DNA from: Nocardioidaceae bacterium
Lineage (GTDB): Bacteria > Actinomycetota > Actinomycetes > Propionibacteriales > Nocardioidaceae
Length of the DNA stretch: 40,155 nt
Reading direction: 5' to 3'
Assembly (NCBI GenBank): GCA_029266455.1
Contig: JAQSWV010000025.1
Coordinates: 1 to 40,155 of the forward strand
Under the pieces are notes generated by a model. That model searched no databases. It had not been told where the DNA came from and saw nothing but the letters and a program-made list of their open reading frames with translations. Shown here in pieces: positions 35,825 to 40,155 of this stretch (positions are counted from its first letter, which is position 1; each line of letters starts with the position of its first letter). The translations under genes and the position numbers were made by a program.

Positions 35825-36017
35825 TGCCACCTCTCCGAGGCTAGTGAGCGGTGGCCACGGTGACCCGCTGGGGGCCGCATGCGCGGAACCCTCGGCCATC
35901 CGGCCATACCTTTCCGCCGTTCATGTGAGCGGCCGCCCGTGCGGGCGACACGCGTCCGGCCGCAGGTGATGCTGGTGCGGAATCTGACCTGTGCCACACC
36001 TGGACGGAGGAGGTCCC

Positions 36018-38309
36018 GTGCAGGACGCGGCCGTGCCAGCCGTGCTCACTTCGGGCCGGCGTTCGTGGGCGAGCCCGTTCCTTGTCCTCGCCGCGTTCTG
36101 GGCGATCTATGTCTTCGCGCTGCCGAAGGTGCTCGACGAGGCGGGCCGGACCATGGCGATGGTGGTGGTCATCGCCGCCTTCTTCCTGTTCCTCGTCGCC
36201 AAGGTCGTCCGCACGGCCGTCACTGACGCCGCTCGCCGACTTCCGCTGCTGCTGCTCGCCGGCGGCATGACCCTGTGGGCGGCCGGCTCGGCGACGGTGA
36301 ACGCGACAGAGGCCGTCTCGACGGTGTCGTTCCCGTCCCCGGGCGAGGTGCTGTTCCTGCTGTCGTACGGAGGGATCGCCGCCTTCCTGCTCACCGAGGT
36401 GCCCCGGCGCCGACGGCTGCCCCCTCTGACGCTCTGGCTCGAGACCATGGTCATCTGTGGCGCCGTCGCCTGCGTGGCCGCTGTCGTCGTGGTGACACCC
36501 ATCTCCCTGTCCTTCGACCGCGGCGGGCTGGCGCTGTTGCTGGCGGTGCTCTACCCGCTCATCGACCTGGCGCTGGCCACGATGGTCCTGGGCCAGCTGC
36601 TGCTCCACCAGCGCGAGCCGTCACTGCGTACCGGGGCGATGGTGCTCGGCTTCGTGCTGCTGGCGGCGGCCGACAGCAGCTTCGTGCTGACGCTGGGCAG
36701 CGCGAGCTACACCTCCAACGTCAGCCTGGACGTTCTGTGGGGCGCCAGCTTCAGCCTCATCGTGACGGCGGCCTGTCTGCGGCCTGGCGCAGCCCCGCAT
36801 CGGGCTGTCCTCGAGCGACGTGCTCGTACGCTGCTGATCGCAGGTGCCATCGCGCTCGGAGTGCTGATCCTCAGCCCCCGCGACGGTGTCGGGTGGGTCC
36901 TGGTCGCCGTCGCCGTCGTGACGCTGCTGTCAGCCGGCGCCCGGATGGCCGTGGCGCTGCGAGACGCGCAGGGAGCGGCTGAGGCACTGCGGCTGTCCCG
37001 CACCGACGAGCTGACCGGTCTACCCAACCGCCGTGCGATCCTGTCCGACCTCGATGTCGCCCTGCGCGACGACCGGCCGCTCGGCTTCATGCTCCTGGAC
37101 CTGGACGGGTTCAAGGACATCAACGACAGCGTCGGCCACGGTACGGGCGATGCACTGCTGGTCCTCATCGCCCGTCGACTCACCGAGGCGATGGGCAGTC
37201 ACATGTCGGTCGCTCGCCTCGGCGGCGACGAGTTCGGGATCATCGCGCGAGAGAGCGACCCGGTCAGCCTGGTGGAGAGCGCGCAGAGGATCCGGGACCT
37301 GCTGCGGCAGCCTCACCAGGTCGACGGGCTGCAGGTGTCCATCGAGGTGTCCATCGGCATCACGGTCCAGCAGGCGGACGACACCGGCGCGACCGACCTG
37401 CTGCGTCGCGCCGATGTCGCCATGTACGAGGCGAAGGCCGCCCGCGTGGGCGCCCTGCTGTACGACCTGACCCAGGACGGGTTCTCACGAGACCGGCTGC
37501 GCCGCACCGACGACCTGCGTGGCGGCATCCGCGACGGTCAGCTGGTCATGTGGTACCAGCCCCAGATCGACGCGGCCACCCAGCAGGTCACCGCGGTCGA
37601 AGGCCTGGTCCGTTGGCAGCACCCCACCGACGGCCTGCTGTCCCCGATCGCGTTCCTTCCGGACGCACGCCGGTACGGGCTGATGCCCGAGCTCTCCCAC
37701 TGGGTCGTCCGCAAGGTGGTGGACGACGCCCGACGCTGGGCGGACGACGGCTTCGACTTCCGGGTGGCGGTGAACTGCGCGCCTCCCGAGCTCATGGGGG
37801 GCACCCTGCTTCCGCTCCTGTATGAGGAGCTCGCGCGGGCCGATCTGCCCCCGCGGCGGCTGGTCGTGGAGGTCACCGAGGACTCGTTCATGTCCGACCC
37901 CGAACGCGCCCGTGAGCGGCTGCTCGAGCTCCGCGACCACGAGGTCGAGATCTCGATCGACGACTACGGGACGGGGTTCTCGTCGCTGGCGTACCTCCGC
38001 GACCTGCCGGTGCAGGAGCTGAAGATCGATCGATCCTTCGTCGCCACGATGTGCACCGATGCCCGAAGCCGCATGATCGTCGACACCACCCGCCAGCTGG
38101 CCCACGGCATGGGACTGCGCCTGGTGGCCGAGGGTGTGGAGGACGCGGAGACCGCTGCCGCCCTGGTGGCGATGGACATCGACGTGCTCCAGGGCTACCA
38201 CCTGTCCGCGCCCATGCCTGCCGTTGACGTCGCGGGTTGGGTGCGGGACTGGTCCCGGGCCCTCAGCAGTGACCCGGCTGAGCTACCCGAAGTGTCCGAC
38301 CGGGGTTGA
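36018..38309 (+). CDS. Membrane GGDEF-EAL cyclic-di-GMP protein
   Basis: A 763-residue sensor enzyme. Residues about 18-310 make nine or ten membrane helices (an MASE-like sensor region, type not recognised). The GGDEF domain is about 325-485 with ARLGGDEFGII (402-406) and SRTDELTGLPNRRA; there is no RxxD inhibitory site in the usual position (GSHM instead). The EAL domain is about 500-750 with VEGLVRWQHP (EGL in place of EAL, catalytic Glu kept), VNCAP, VEVTEDSF, DDYGTGFSS, LKIDRSF, AEGVED and QGYHLSAP. Both synthase and phosphodiesterase residues are present. GTG 36018 follows GGAGGAGG. It overlaps the convergent acyltransferase gene by 27 bases. Confidence 0.95.
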   Translation: MQDAAVPAVLTSGRRSWASPFLVLAAFWAIYVFALPKVLDEAGRTMAMVVVIAAFFLFLVAKVVRTAVTDAARRLPLLLLAGGMTLWAAGSATVNATEAVSTVSFPSPGEVLFLLSYGGIAAFLLTEVPRRRRLPPLTLWLETMVICGAVACVAAVVVVTPISLSFDRGGLALLLAVLYPLIDLALATMVLGQLLLHQREPSLRTGAMVLGFVLLAAADSSFVLTLGSASYTSNVSLDVLWGASFSLIVTAACLRPGAAPHRAVLERRARTLLIAGAIALGVLILSPRDGVGWVLVAVAVVTLLSAGARMAVALRDAQGAAEALRLSRTDELTGLPNRRAILSDLDVALRDDRPLGFMLLDLDGFKDINDSVGHGTGDALLVLIARRLTEAMGSHMSVARLGGDEFGIIARESDPVSLVESAQRIRDLLRQPHQVDGLQVSIEVSIGITVQQADDTGATDLLRRADVAMYEAKAARVGALLYDLTQDGFSRDRLRRTDDLRGGIRDGQLVMWYQPQIDAATQQVTAVEGLVRWQHPTDGLLSPIAFLPDARRYGLMPELSHWVVRKVVDDARRWADDGFDFRVAVNCAPPELMGGTLLPLLYEELARADLPPRRLVVEVTEDSFMSDPERARERLLELRDHEVEISIDDYGTGFSSLAYLRDLPVQELKIDRSFVATMCTDARSRMIVDTTRQLAHGMGLRLVAEGVEDAETAAALVAMDIDVLQGYHLSAPMPAVDVAGWVRDWSRALSSDPAELPEVSDRG

Positions 38310-39023
38310 CACCACCTGCCTGGCGGGGGCGCGGGCAGGGGCGCCCGCCGGCGTCAGCCGGAAGGCGTCCGGCGCGGGCACACTGATGCCGTCGAGCCCG
38401 ATCCCCAACGTGACGAGGCGATGGGCCTCCGGTGCGAGGCGCCGCTGCTGGTCGAGCCCCGCGGCCAGGTGAGCATAGACCGGAGTGCTCGCCGCCGAGC
38501 CGAGATACGGGGCCGCAGTCGTGCCCGGGATGGGGTGCAGGACCAGGCCGATCGAGGACAGCAGCCGGCGGGCACGCTCGTCAAGGACGGCGACCACCGT
38601 GTGCACCTGGTTGACCCGCAGCGCGAGCAGCAGGCCGTGGTACAGCGCCAGGCTCAGCCTGGCGGCTGATCGCGACCGATCCGGGCGCAGCCCCATCGTG
38701 GCGCAGTCCCAGGTCGTGGCCGGATCGATGCGTGCCGCGGCGGCGCTGCGGACCGGGACCGCATTCCACGGCGGCAGACCCACGTCGTTCAGGGTCTTCA
38801 GGCCGGCCACTCCGGGGACAACGAACCGCACGATGCCGAGCACGTCGTCGCGCTCGTCGGCCAGCGCGACGAACACCGAGCTGGCCTCGTAGCGGTCGTA
38901 CTCCTCCGCCAGCTGCTGGCTCGTGTTGCCGTACCACCGCAGGAAGATGTCTGCCTCACAGCGCCTCGACGCTGCCAGCAGGTCACCTGTCGGGTTGAAC
39001 ACCAGCCGCAACGGCGTCGCCAT
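38283..39023 (-). CDS. LuxI-like/GNAT-superfamily acyltransferase
   Basis: A 246-residue protein whose first half resembles LuxI-type N-acyl-homoserine-lactone synthases and related GNAT enzymes: SRRCEADIFLRWYGNTSQQL, AEEYDRYEASSVFVALAD, LGIVRFVVPGVAGLKTLND. This follows the R...F...W...E.D.YD...R pattern of LuxI enzymes, which use SAM and an acyl donor. The second half (LSLALYHGLLLALRVNQVHT, VLDERARRLLSSIGLVLHPI) fits the GNAT acceptor side. The C-terminal 30 residues are Pro/Ala-rich. ATG 39023 shares one base with the stop of the SpeD-like gene (TGATG), so translation is coupled. Substrates are unknown; the fold call is from pattern, without a search. Confidence 0.7.
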   Translation of the reverse strand: MATPLRLVFNPTGDLLAASRRCEADIFLRWYGNTSQQLAEEYDRYEASSVFVALADERDDVLGIVRFVVPGVAGLKTLNDVGLPPWNAVPVRSAAAARIDPATTWDCATMGLRPDRSRSAARLSLALYHGLLLALRVNQVHTVVAVLDERARRLLSSIGLVLHPIPGTTAAPYLGSAASTPVYAHLAAGLDQQRRLAPEAHRLVTLGIGLDGISVPAPDAFRLTPAGAPARAPARQVVSTPVGHFG

Positions 39024-39364
39024 CAGAAGTCCTTCCAGACGACATCGTCGGCACCGAAGAACTCACGGGTGAAAGCCACGACGTCGTCCGTACGAAAGCT
39101 CTTGCAGGCATAGATGTCGACGCTGAAGAAGAGCCTCGGTGTGTCCCAGGCGTAGAAGTGGGCACCGGACGTCTCCCAGTGGATCCAGCCCGCCCATCCG
39201 TACAGGGGTGACTGGTGCGTGACCGGCTCGATGAGGGTGACCATGTCGATGGTCTCCGACAGCTTCGACAGATAGTCGCGGATCGAGCAGGCGTCGATCG
39301 ACTCTCGACTCAACCCCTCGACGACAAGTCGCTGGCGGATGATGTCTGGGGCGAGGTCAAGCAC
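39023..39364 (-). CDS. S-adenosylmethionine-decarboxylase-like (SpeD-related) protein
   Basis: A 113-residue protein related to the pyruvoyl-dependent AdoMet decarboxylases: LAPDIIRQRLVVEGL, LSETIDMVTLIEPVTH, GWAGWIHWETSG, AHFYAWDTPRLFFSVDIYAC. Aligning by eye to Thermotoga SpeD (Ser63, His68, Cys83), Ser66 matches the self-cleavage serine and Cys87 the catalytic cysteine. The residue before the serine is Thr rather than Glu, and the His position is Tyr71. It may therefore process differently or have another reaction. No spermidine synthase is nearby; instead it is coupled to a LuxI-like acyltransferase. GTG 39364 is chosen because GGGAGGA lies 8 bases upstream and similarity begins there. 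Confidence 0.78.
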   Translation of the reverse strand: MLDLAPDIIRQRLVVEGLSRESIDACSIRDYLSKLSETIDMVTLIEPVTHQSPLYGWAGWIHWETSGAHFYAWDTPRLFFSVDIYACKSFRTDDVVAFTREFFGADDVVWKDF

Positions 39365-40012
39365 GGCGGAGGTCCTCCCGGAGCAGTGGGGCCCAGGAGC
39401 CGTCGCGAGCCCTTGGAACGCCGACGACGGCACCTGCAGCAGGTAGGGCGACCGTCGCACCCCATAGGGGGCACAAGCACTCGTTCGGAGCAAGGGGGGC
39501 CGACCAGCCGAGAAGCCGCAGTCCGTGCAGATGACGACAGAAAGAAAAGTTCTACATCAGGCTGAGAAGCGATGGGACGCTGGAAGGTTAAGCACTGGTA
39601 GTTCTCGATGCCTGATTGGTGATCCGGTCCGGCTATCCGCATCCGGGGAAGAAATGCGTTGACGGGTCCAGGTCGACCAGCACCCGCGCAGGCTATGGGT
39701 TATTTGGTCCCGGTTCGACCGTTCAAGCACATTTTCTGGCGATGCCTGCGACGATTCTCGTGCGTCCCCGGTCACCGATCCCCCCCATCGATGACCGGGG
39801 CCGCGTTAGCCCCGCAGGCGAATGACCGGGCTCGCAGGTGCCACTCGGCGACCAACGTGCGGAGGTGGCGTAGGCCCGGTCCTCGTCGTTTGTTTCCGGA
39901 GCAGCCGCTGGCCTTCTCCCTGCTCGGGGGCCTGGGCAGTGATCCCGTGCCGGCCCCGGCCTGGTTGCTGGGTTCAGCCGGCTGGTTCACACGGTGGGGT
40001 CGGGTGTCAGGG
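39365..40012. other. Intergenic region without a recognisable gene
   Basis: About 650 bases, relatively A/T-richer around 39500-39750. Open frames on both strands have no family features. It must contain the promoter of the SpeD-like operon on the minus strand, but no convincing -10/-35 pair is evident. The only clear structure is the hairpin at 39766-39800. A GGTTCGACC string near 39711 resembles a tRNA T-loop, but no tRNA can be folded around it. Confidence 0.5.
39766..39800. terminator. Strong hairpin, possible terminator
   Basis: CCCCGGTCA (39766-39774) pairs perfectly with TGACCGGGG (39792-39800). Inside, after one C/A mismatch, CGAT pairs with ATCG around a loop of seven C. There is no U run on either side. 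It lies about 210 bases beyond the stop of the minus-strand gene at the window end and could end its transcript. Confidence 0.5.
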
Positions 40013-40155
40013 TCACTTCTGCCAGCCCTTGGGCAGGACGTAGAAGTCGTCCCAGCTGATCTTGCCCTTGAGGCAGTCGGTGCTGACGTTGGTTCCGGGG
40101 TAGCCCCCGGACTGTCCCTTCAGCTGGGTGGACGAGCCGGAGTTGTCGCCGATGT
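40013..40155 (-). CDS. C-terminus of an unidentified gene, cut by window edge
   Basis: The last 47 codons of a minus-strand gene: IGDNSGSSTQLKGQSGGYPG, TNVSTDCLKGKISWDDFYVL, PKGWQK, then TGA. The Gly/Ser/Asn-rich stretch with one Cys and the aromatic end look like an extracellular protein, but the family cannot be named from this fragment. Reading frame and codon usage are natural for this genome. Confidence 0.65.
   Translation of the reverse strand, partial: IGDNSGSSTQLKGQSGGYPGTNVSTDCLKGKISWDDFYVLPKGWQK

Follow-up and report, generated by a model that had tools for sequence, protein, structure and literature searches.

LuxI-type signal synthesis, which uses S-adenosylmethionine (SAM), is known mainly from Pseudomonadota, and the conserved residues of LuxI include Arg24, Trp34 and Arg104, the first two of which we take to line the SAM site. 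A second family, that of the SAM decarboxylase SpeD, has homologs that turned into pyruvoyl ornithine and arginine decarboxylases, SpeDC and SpeDA, as described by Li and colleagues (PMC10407285). By the reasoning of that paper, Ser63, His68 and Cys83 should be kept in SpeD homologs, His68 of the Thermotoga maritima enzyme having a role in both processing and catalysis. Here, we describe a SpeD-like gene that overlaps a LuxI-like acyltransferase gene on the minus strand, at the end of contig JAQSWV010000025.1 (C93) of a Nocardioidaceae bacterium; the window analysed is this whole contig of 40155 bases. Together with adjoining sensor genes, the pair appears to be a so far undescribed means by which a chemical signal is produced and perceived. 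Among the titles and abstract beginnings listed in searches of open-access literature we found no paper describing a SpeD–LuxI pair, a search that did not extend to subscription papers, so that the novelty is provisional. The main text of PMC10407285 makes no mention of an acyltransferase, and the partial text of a survey of LuxI homologs in Gram-positive bacteria (PMC5539150) names neither a decarboxylase nor any of the four genera that we sought.

Results

The SpeD-like gene (39023-39364, minus strand) encodes a putative proenzyme of 113 residues; its GTG start (39362-39364) follows, at a distance of 8 nt, a sequence resembling a ribosome-binding site, GGGAGGA (39373-39379, minus strand). 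The adjoining gene (38283-39023, minus strand) encodes a protein of 246 residues, assigned to the LuxI/FeeM superfamily of N-acyltransferases by its fold and by a profile match to acyl-homoserine lactone (AHL) synthases. Its start codon overlaps the stop codon of the SpeD-like gene, the two sharing a TGATG at 39021-39025 (minus strand). Reading the sequence confirmed both genes and their junction as given in the initial annotation of this locus. An Rfam scan of 37900-40155 returned no model at the gathering score.

We scanned one genome per species for relatives of the SpeD-like protein and kept the best 80 of 108 loci, which have 58-77% identity. They come from 77 assemblies, with two loci each in three of them (L013/L040, L021/L049, L028/L041), mostly from Actinomycetota (Actinomycetes, Acidimicrobiia), and further from Saccharibacteria, a few other candidate-phylum bins, Micavibrio-labelled bins and unassigned bins. 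The loci are related and many are congeneric, so the counts below are not independent events. With an iterated acyltransferase profile, a LuxI-like gene was found beside the SpeD-like gene in 71 loci at E ≤4e-18 and in L069 at E 0.008; by eye, the latter shares a divergent form with L084 of a separate genome, and we count it as a pair. The adjacency, which the initial annotation had proposed to survey across genomes, is thus conserved in 72 of the 80 loci, and a curiosity confined to the window is ruled out. In 63 of these 72, the acyltransferase frame has a potential start codon between 12 nt before and 10 nt after the SpeD stop, and in 19 it lies exactly at -1, a one-base overlap. The two other frames, taken as a control, offer such a start in only 5 and 1 of the 72 loci; in the remaining nine, the nearest acyltransferase-frame start is 11-172 nt downstream of the SpeD stop.

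Some genomes hold more than one copy. Two genomes with the full three-gene set carry, at another place, an additional SpeD-like copy that is an orphan (L040 in one, L049 in the other), and the open reading frame (ORF) next to L040 encodes a flavin mononucleotide oxidoreductase of the NADH:flavin oxidoreductase family. The Blastococcus mobilis assembly has two SpeD-like/acyltransferase pairs (L028, L041), each with an upstream GGDEF-EAL-like gene. We also considered contamination of low-GC bins by Actinomycetota DNA and rejected it: 14 loci that are candidate-phylum-labelled, Micavibrio-labelled or unassigned have a GC content of 38-52% (33-45% in the SpeD gene), as compared to 70-75% for three actinobacterial loci.

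The SpeD-like protein of the window matches the Pfam family AdoMet_dc with 33.4 bits against a curated cut-off of 25, and the same family matches, at E 0.01, all 39 rows of an alignment (A1) chosen from 81 SpeD-like sequences, namely the 80 loci plus the window. Its AlphaFold model has a mean predicted local distance difference test score (pLDDT) of 96.2, and the best solved fold match is T. maritima SpeD (Foldseek E 5.5e-6), to which VIA-align aligned 106 residues at 2.4 Å with Z 13.8 and 13% identity. Searching the sequences of solved structures with each protein by itself, and also with the SpeD profile, gave only weak matches to RNA-binding domains and one unrelated weak match.

The 81 sequences show no variation at Ser66, Gly67, His69, Tyr71, Asp83, Tyr85 and Cys87, and 78 of them have Thr65, the core motif reading GWxGWIHWETSGAHFYAW[ED]. 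The initial annotation had read Thr65, Ser66, Tyr71 and Cys87 in the window protein, and all four stand as claimed. Ser66 and Cys87 occupy the positions of the predicted pyruvoyl-forming serine and catalytic cysteine, which are kept even in the eight loci without an acyltransferase neighbor. The equivalent of T. maritima His68 is a tyrosine (Tyr71) and that of His64 a glycine, each in 81/81. As a comparison, we took 21 SpeD loci found in 149 genomes of the phylum, canonical by sequence only; all 21 carry an SHxxxH motif with histidine at the His68 position. In a SpeD tree of 58 rows, the module sequences and their sisters (36 rows) are split from the canonical rows with support 98/90, while the module alone is poorly supported (55/96); the single presumed SpeDC row sits on a very long branch, and its placement is unsure.

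The sister SpeD-like family (DLAPxIxRQRLLIEGFY, SGxxxY; 29-33% identity) occurs on plasmids of two cyanobacteria, Acaryochloris and Nostoc, and of the gammaproteobacterium Halioglobus (L116, L117, L118), where the acyltransferase profile found no LuxI-like neighbor within 6 kb. An annotated GNAT gene, unmatched by that profile, lies directly upstream of the SpeD-like gene on the Acaryochloris plasmid. At E 0.01, phage sequences gave no SpeD-like match and plasmids no acyltransferase match.

The acyltransferase of the window has no Pfam match at E 1, and its 28.4 bits against the NCBIfam exosortase-associated acyltransferase model TIGR03694 fall below the curated cut-off of 111.95, which leaves it outside that family. 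Among the 49 rows of an alignment (A2) chosen from 73 acyltransferase sequences, 37 match exosort_acyl (TIGR03694), 8 Autoind_synth and 5 FeeM at E 0.01. A profile–profile comparison (hhalign) with seven AHL synthases, six as whole sequences and LasI as one stretch, gave a probability of 96% and E 2e-9, and LasI was the sole match of the acyltransferase profile among solved structures (E 0.025). The AlphaFold model (pLDDT 93.4) matched FeeM with Z 17.1 (172 residues, 12% identity), followed by LasI (16.4), BjaI (15.6-15.7), RpaI (15.3), TofI (15.1) and MesI (14.9); FeeM and LasI count as a tie by the rule of the alignment tool. One general GNAT chain reached Z 15.6, the other general GNATs listed ranged from 11.6 to 14.2, and EsaI (11.9-12.2) fell within the GNAT range. 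The two folds are therefore those the initial annotation had expected, SpeD (Z 13.8) and LuxI/FeeM (Z 15.6-17.1), and neither protein falls into an unrelated one. Chance resemblance is ruled out by the confident models, the family-wide profile matches and the conserved linkage.

The LuxI residue pattern was claimed for this protein as well, and it holds in part. Phe27 and Arg66, corresponding to LuxI Phe28 and Arg70, are invariant in the 73 acyltransferases. The claimed tryptophan fails: Trp30 is tryptophan in only 11/73 and does not occupy the LuxI Trp34 position. Instead, the equivalent of Arg24 is Glu23 (73/73), that of Trp34 is Asn33 (72/73), and that of Arg104 is residue 109, with threonine in 62 and serine in 10 of the 73, whereas the compared AHL synthases keep Arg24 (6/6), Trp34 (7/7) and Arg104 (7/7). 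By eye, a divergent LuxI-like type with a YDFxEGMxPYE core is common to L084 (6945-10928) and L069 (8315-9115); it adjoins a GGDEF-EAL gene in the actinobacterial L084 and a histidine kinase gene in the Saccharibacteria locus L069.

A gene for a membrane GGDEF-EAL protein of 772 residues (35991-38309, plus strand; Pfam EAL 222 bits, GGDEF 130 bits) converges on the pair and overlaps the 3' end of the acyltransferase gene by 27 nt. By hydropathy, the protein has about nine hydrophobic segments, followed by GGDEF and then EAL; the motifs GGDEF, DDYGTG, EVTE, LKID and EGVE are present, and EAL reads EGL. NIF3-like, zinc-ribbon and RNase H/histidine phosphatase genes lie upstream of it on the minus strand. 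This cyclic di-GMP (c-di-GMP) gene had been regarded as a bystander, a view that our results overturn, since such a gene recurs as a partner: 48 of the 80 loci have a GGDEF-EAL-like gene no more than 3.5 kb away from the SpeD-like one (phmmer with the GGDEF-EAL region of the window, E 1e-5). Four orientations occur, upstream on the same strand (23), downstream convergent (20), upstream divergent (4) and downstream on the same strand (1). An internal control set the inner flanks, with 48 matches of this search in 518 kb, against the outer ones, which had 3 in 550 kb. Both domains were found by Pfam in all six proteins scanned (window, L014, L051, L072, L083, L084; L083 and L084 lie outside the 80-locus set). 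A GGDEF-EAL-like gene accompanies 39 of the 55 loci with an acyltransferase at E <1e-10 and at least 3 kb of flank on both sides, and none of the nine loci where the acyltransferase is absent at E 1e-10 (L069 included).

In seven Saccharibacteria loci (L062, L064, L068, L069, L070, L074, L078), the pair is followed directly by a same-strand ORF that matches one histidine kinase of 731 residues, in place of GGDEF-EAL; the contig ends inside the kinase gene in L062, and in L074 the gene is spread over two ORFs. All three kinases scanned (L064, L068, L070) have HisKA and HATPase_c domains, and that of L068 also has the seven-transmembrane sensor HisKA_7TM. In L073, an unassigned bin of similar type, the contig ends before the kinase position. 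The Micromonosporaceae loci vary more. In one, L072, the acyltransferase gene is directly followed by a PAS-GGDEF-EAL gene. Nine neighboring proteins from six loci of this family were scanned and showed no common partner, matching a sulfotransferase, an ABC transporter, a LacI-type regulator, a glycoside hydrolase, an APH-type kinase and a protein kinase, with two left without a match. Protein-kinase-like genes lie a few kb from the pair in five Micromonosporaceae loci (L048, L054, L067, L077, L079; Pfam-checked in L048 and L067), and this group is a possible third kind of partner.

We further searched an even sample of 296 Actinomycetota genomes, the window's own genome included. A SpeD-like gene was found in 4/296 at E 1e-10, with the complete trio in three of these carriers (the own genome, G284, G186). 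A fifth gene order is seen in G186, whose GGDEF-EAL gene is flanked by the SpeD-like gene on one side and by a divergent LuxI-like gene (E 8e-8, no Pfam match) on the other. A single operon passed down unchanged would hardly account for a linkage that persists across at least five gene orders. In the acyltransferase search of the same genomes, the own genome and G284 pass E 1e-10 among the matches listed. In a sample of 61 genomes of the family, three have a SpeD-like gene, each with an acyltransferase and a GGDEF-EAL-type gene; one of the carriers, G329 (L087), appears identical with the genome of L008. The sensor subtype of the window was found at E 1e-10 in 5/61, of which three have the SpeD-like gene, one a SpeD remnant and one a contig that ends inside the gene; within this sample, the subtype thus looked specific to the module.

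The own genome has a single SpeD-like copy at E 0.1. Searching it with Pfam AdoMet_dc at E 0.001 gave nothing and missed the window copy as well, so this negative covers only canonical, high-scoring SpeDs, which reach 76-135 bits in the phylum matches. Its one spermidine-synthase-like match, with 35.5 bits, is on another contig.

Discussion

The association of these genes is close to certain. Given the observed folds, conservation, gene junction and linkage to sensor genes, we see about an even chance that the pair and its neighbor form a signal-making and signal-sensing module, composed of a decarboxylase, an N-acylating enzyme and a membrane GGDEF-EAL or kinase receptor. We infer its steps, from self-cleavage to signalling, as follows. 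The SpeD-like protein would cleave itself between Thr65 and Ser66 and thereby form a pyruvoyl group, and the resulting enzyme would turn an amino acid, which is probably not SAM, into a primary amine by decarboxylation. The LuxI/FeeM-like enzyme, translationally coupled to it, would then move an acyl chain from acyl carrier protein (acyl-ACP) or coenzyme A (acyl-CoA) onto this amine. Decarboxylation is placed before N-acylation because a pyruvoyl enzyme binds the free amine of its substrate as a Schiff base. The N-acyl amine might act as the signal, setting c-di-GMP through the adjoining membrane GGDEF-EAL protein in many Actinomycetota, with the GGDEF-EAL protein of the window as candidate receptor and output, and it might act on a phosphorelay through the membrane histidine kinase in Saccharibacteria.

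The initial annotation had suggested decarboxylation followed by acylation, which is still the best reading, and a SAM-derived amine as acceptor, which is weakened, since SAM-type residues are replaced in both enzymes (His68 by Tyr in one; Arg24, Trp34 and Arg104 in the other). A change of substrate has precedent in the known SpeD homologs that use other substrates, and glutamate in place of LuxI Arg24 would fit an acceptor without a carboxylate. That the pair is linked to membrane sensors of two unrelated kinds speaks for a signal; on this genetic linkage, the module is at most a putative quorum-sensing system.

Several observations weigh against such a module. The replacement of His68 by tyrosine throughout the family means that the activity of the SpeD-like protein is not certain, judging from its sequence. 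Eight of the 80 loci have no adjoining acyltransferase (L015, L040, L046, L049, L050, L052, L058, L076), and six of these eight genomes have no match to the A2 profile at E 0.001 anywhere in the genome. Twelve Micromonosporaceae loci have the pair and no GGDEF-EAL-like gene within 3.5 kb, L072 being the thirteenth. In a congener, G302 (L125 4215-5164), the SpeD-like protein could be traced over just its first 37 profile positions, and this remnant adjoins acyltransferase and GGDEF-EAL genes that look whole. In the fourth phylum carrier, G275, the SpeD-like gene is diverged and lies on a contig of 7.9 kb, and neither partner accompanies it. The sensor regions of the kinases and of the GGDEF-EAL proteins have no detectable homology. 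Finally, remote relatives of the window's sensor region (26-32% identity) are common outside the module, being found in 28/296 genomes including the own one, and none of the 27 further genomes has a SpeD-like gene; a single-sequence search also missed the GGDEF-EAL partners of G284 and G186, which only a profile detects. The sensor family is thus neither exclusive to the module nor its only one.

Those twelve Micromonosporaceae loci would agree with another explanation, in which the N-acyl amine is a membrane lipid or other metabolite and the c-di-GMP and kinase genes stand nearby because all are regulated together for life on surfaces. Some products of N-acyl amino acid synthases can indeed be surfactants rather than signals. 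The repeated association with membrane sensors of two unrelated kinds, in several gene orders, makes this explanation unlikely in our view.

Two further explanations are improbable, and to the same degree. Both parent families use SAM, and the SpeD fold and the gene adjacency would agree with a SpeD-like enzyme that makes decarboxylated SAM (dcSAM) and a LuxI-like enzyme that acylates it to an acyl-dcSAM-type signal; however, His68 and His64 are replaced by Tyr and Gly in every SpeD-like sequence, the equivalents of LuxI Arg24, Trp34 and Arg104 are replaced too, and the own genome has its only spermidine-synthase-like match on a different contig. SpeD homologs that switched to ornithine or arginine are, moreover, already described (PMC10407285).

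The universal loss of His68 and the overlapping genes could instead mean that the SpeD-like protein is a non-catalytic activator of the acyltransferase, much as a prozyme activates the trypanosome SpeD, and the congener G302 keeps the other two genes with a SpeD remnant only. Such a role fits poorly with a Ser66 and Cys87 that are invariant in 81/81, including the eight sequences without an acyltransferase neighbor. That the acyltransferase is an ordinary AHL synthase along which the SpeD-like gene merely rides is very improbable, for in spite of its LuxI fold and profile match it has lost the Arg24, Trp34 and Arg104 equivalents, and the pair is kept in 72/80 loci.

If the pair and its sensor neighbor do form a signalling module, the SpeD–LuxI pair would add signal chemistry in Actinomycetota and Saccharibacteria, give a handle on the ligands sensed by transmembrane GGDEF-EAL proteins of Actinomycetota, and extend the known substrate switching of SpeD (PMC10407285) from polyamine synthesis to signalling. 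We also propose, tentatively and with more doubt than belief, a new bacterial class of N-acyl amine signals, made by the pyruvoyl decarboxylase and LuxI-like acyltransferase together, perceived at the membrane through c-di-GMP enzymes (Actinomycetota) or histidine kinases (Saccharibacteria), and perhaps shared between epibiont and host. The Saccharibacteria known so far are surface epibionts of Actinomycetota, and with the same synthase in both groups they could communicate or eavesdrop in one chemical language.

Comparison with known systems

The SpeD-like protein resembles T. maritima SpeD, a class 1b SAM decarboxylase, in its fold and in the serine and cysteine at the catalytic positions, and differs from it in sequence (13% identity) and in the glycine and tyrosine that stand for His64 and His68. 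Compared with the canonical loci, it has threonine before the serine, where those have glutamate and rarely glutamine, alanine or aspartate; it also has one extra residue before the cysteine, and lysine after it in 78/81. A presumed SpeDC (L115), recognized by its motif beside a canonical SpeD, shares with the family Glu-Thr-Ser and Cys-Lys. Of the SpeDC-diagnostic Gln, Thr, Phe and Tyr (PMC10407285, Fig. 8), only Thr seems kept, as judged by eye against that one presumed SpeDC, and His68, expected by the reasoning of the same paper to be kept in SpeDC and SpeDA, is Tyr here.

For the acyltransferase, the exosortase-associated family TIGR03694 is close in that its profile is matched by 37/49 family rows, although the window protein is below its cut-off. 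FeeM, an N-acyl amino acid synthase, gives the highest Z (17.1 over 172 residues), but at 12% identity, and the window enzyme differs from it in having a coupled SpeD-like gene and sensor neighbors. The LuxI-family AHL synthases (LasI, BjaI, TraI) share the fold, the Phe28 and Arg70 equivalents and a Glu-x-x-x-Tyr stretch; unlike the family described here, they keep Arg24, Trp34 and Arg104, and the partner here is a SpeD-like gene.

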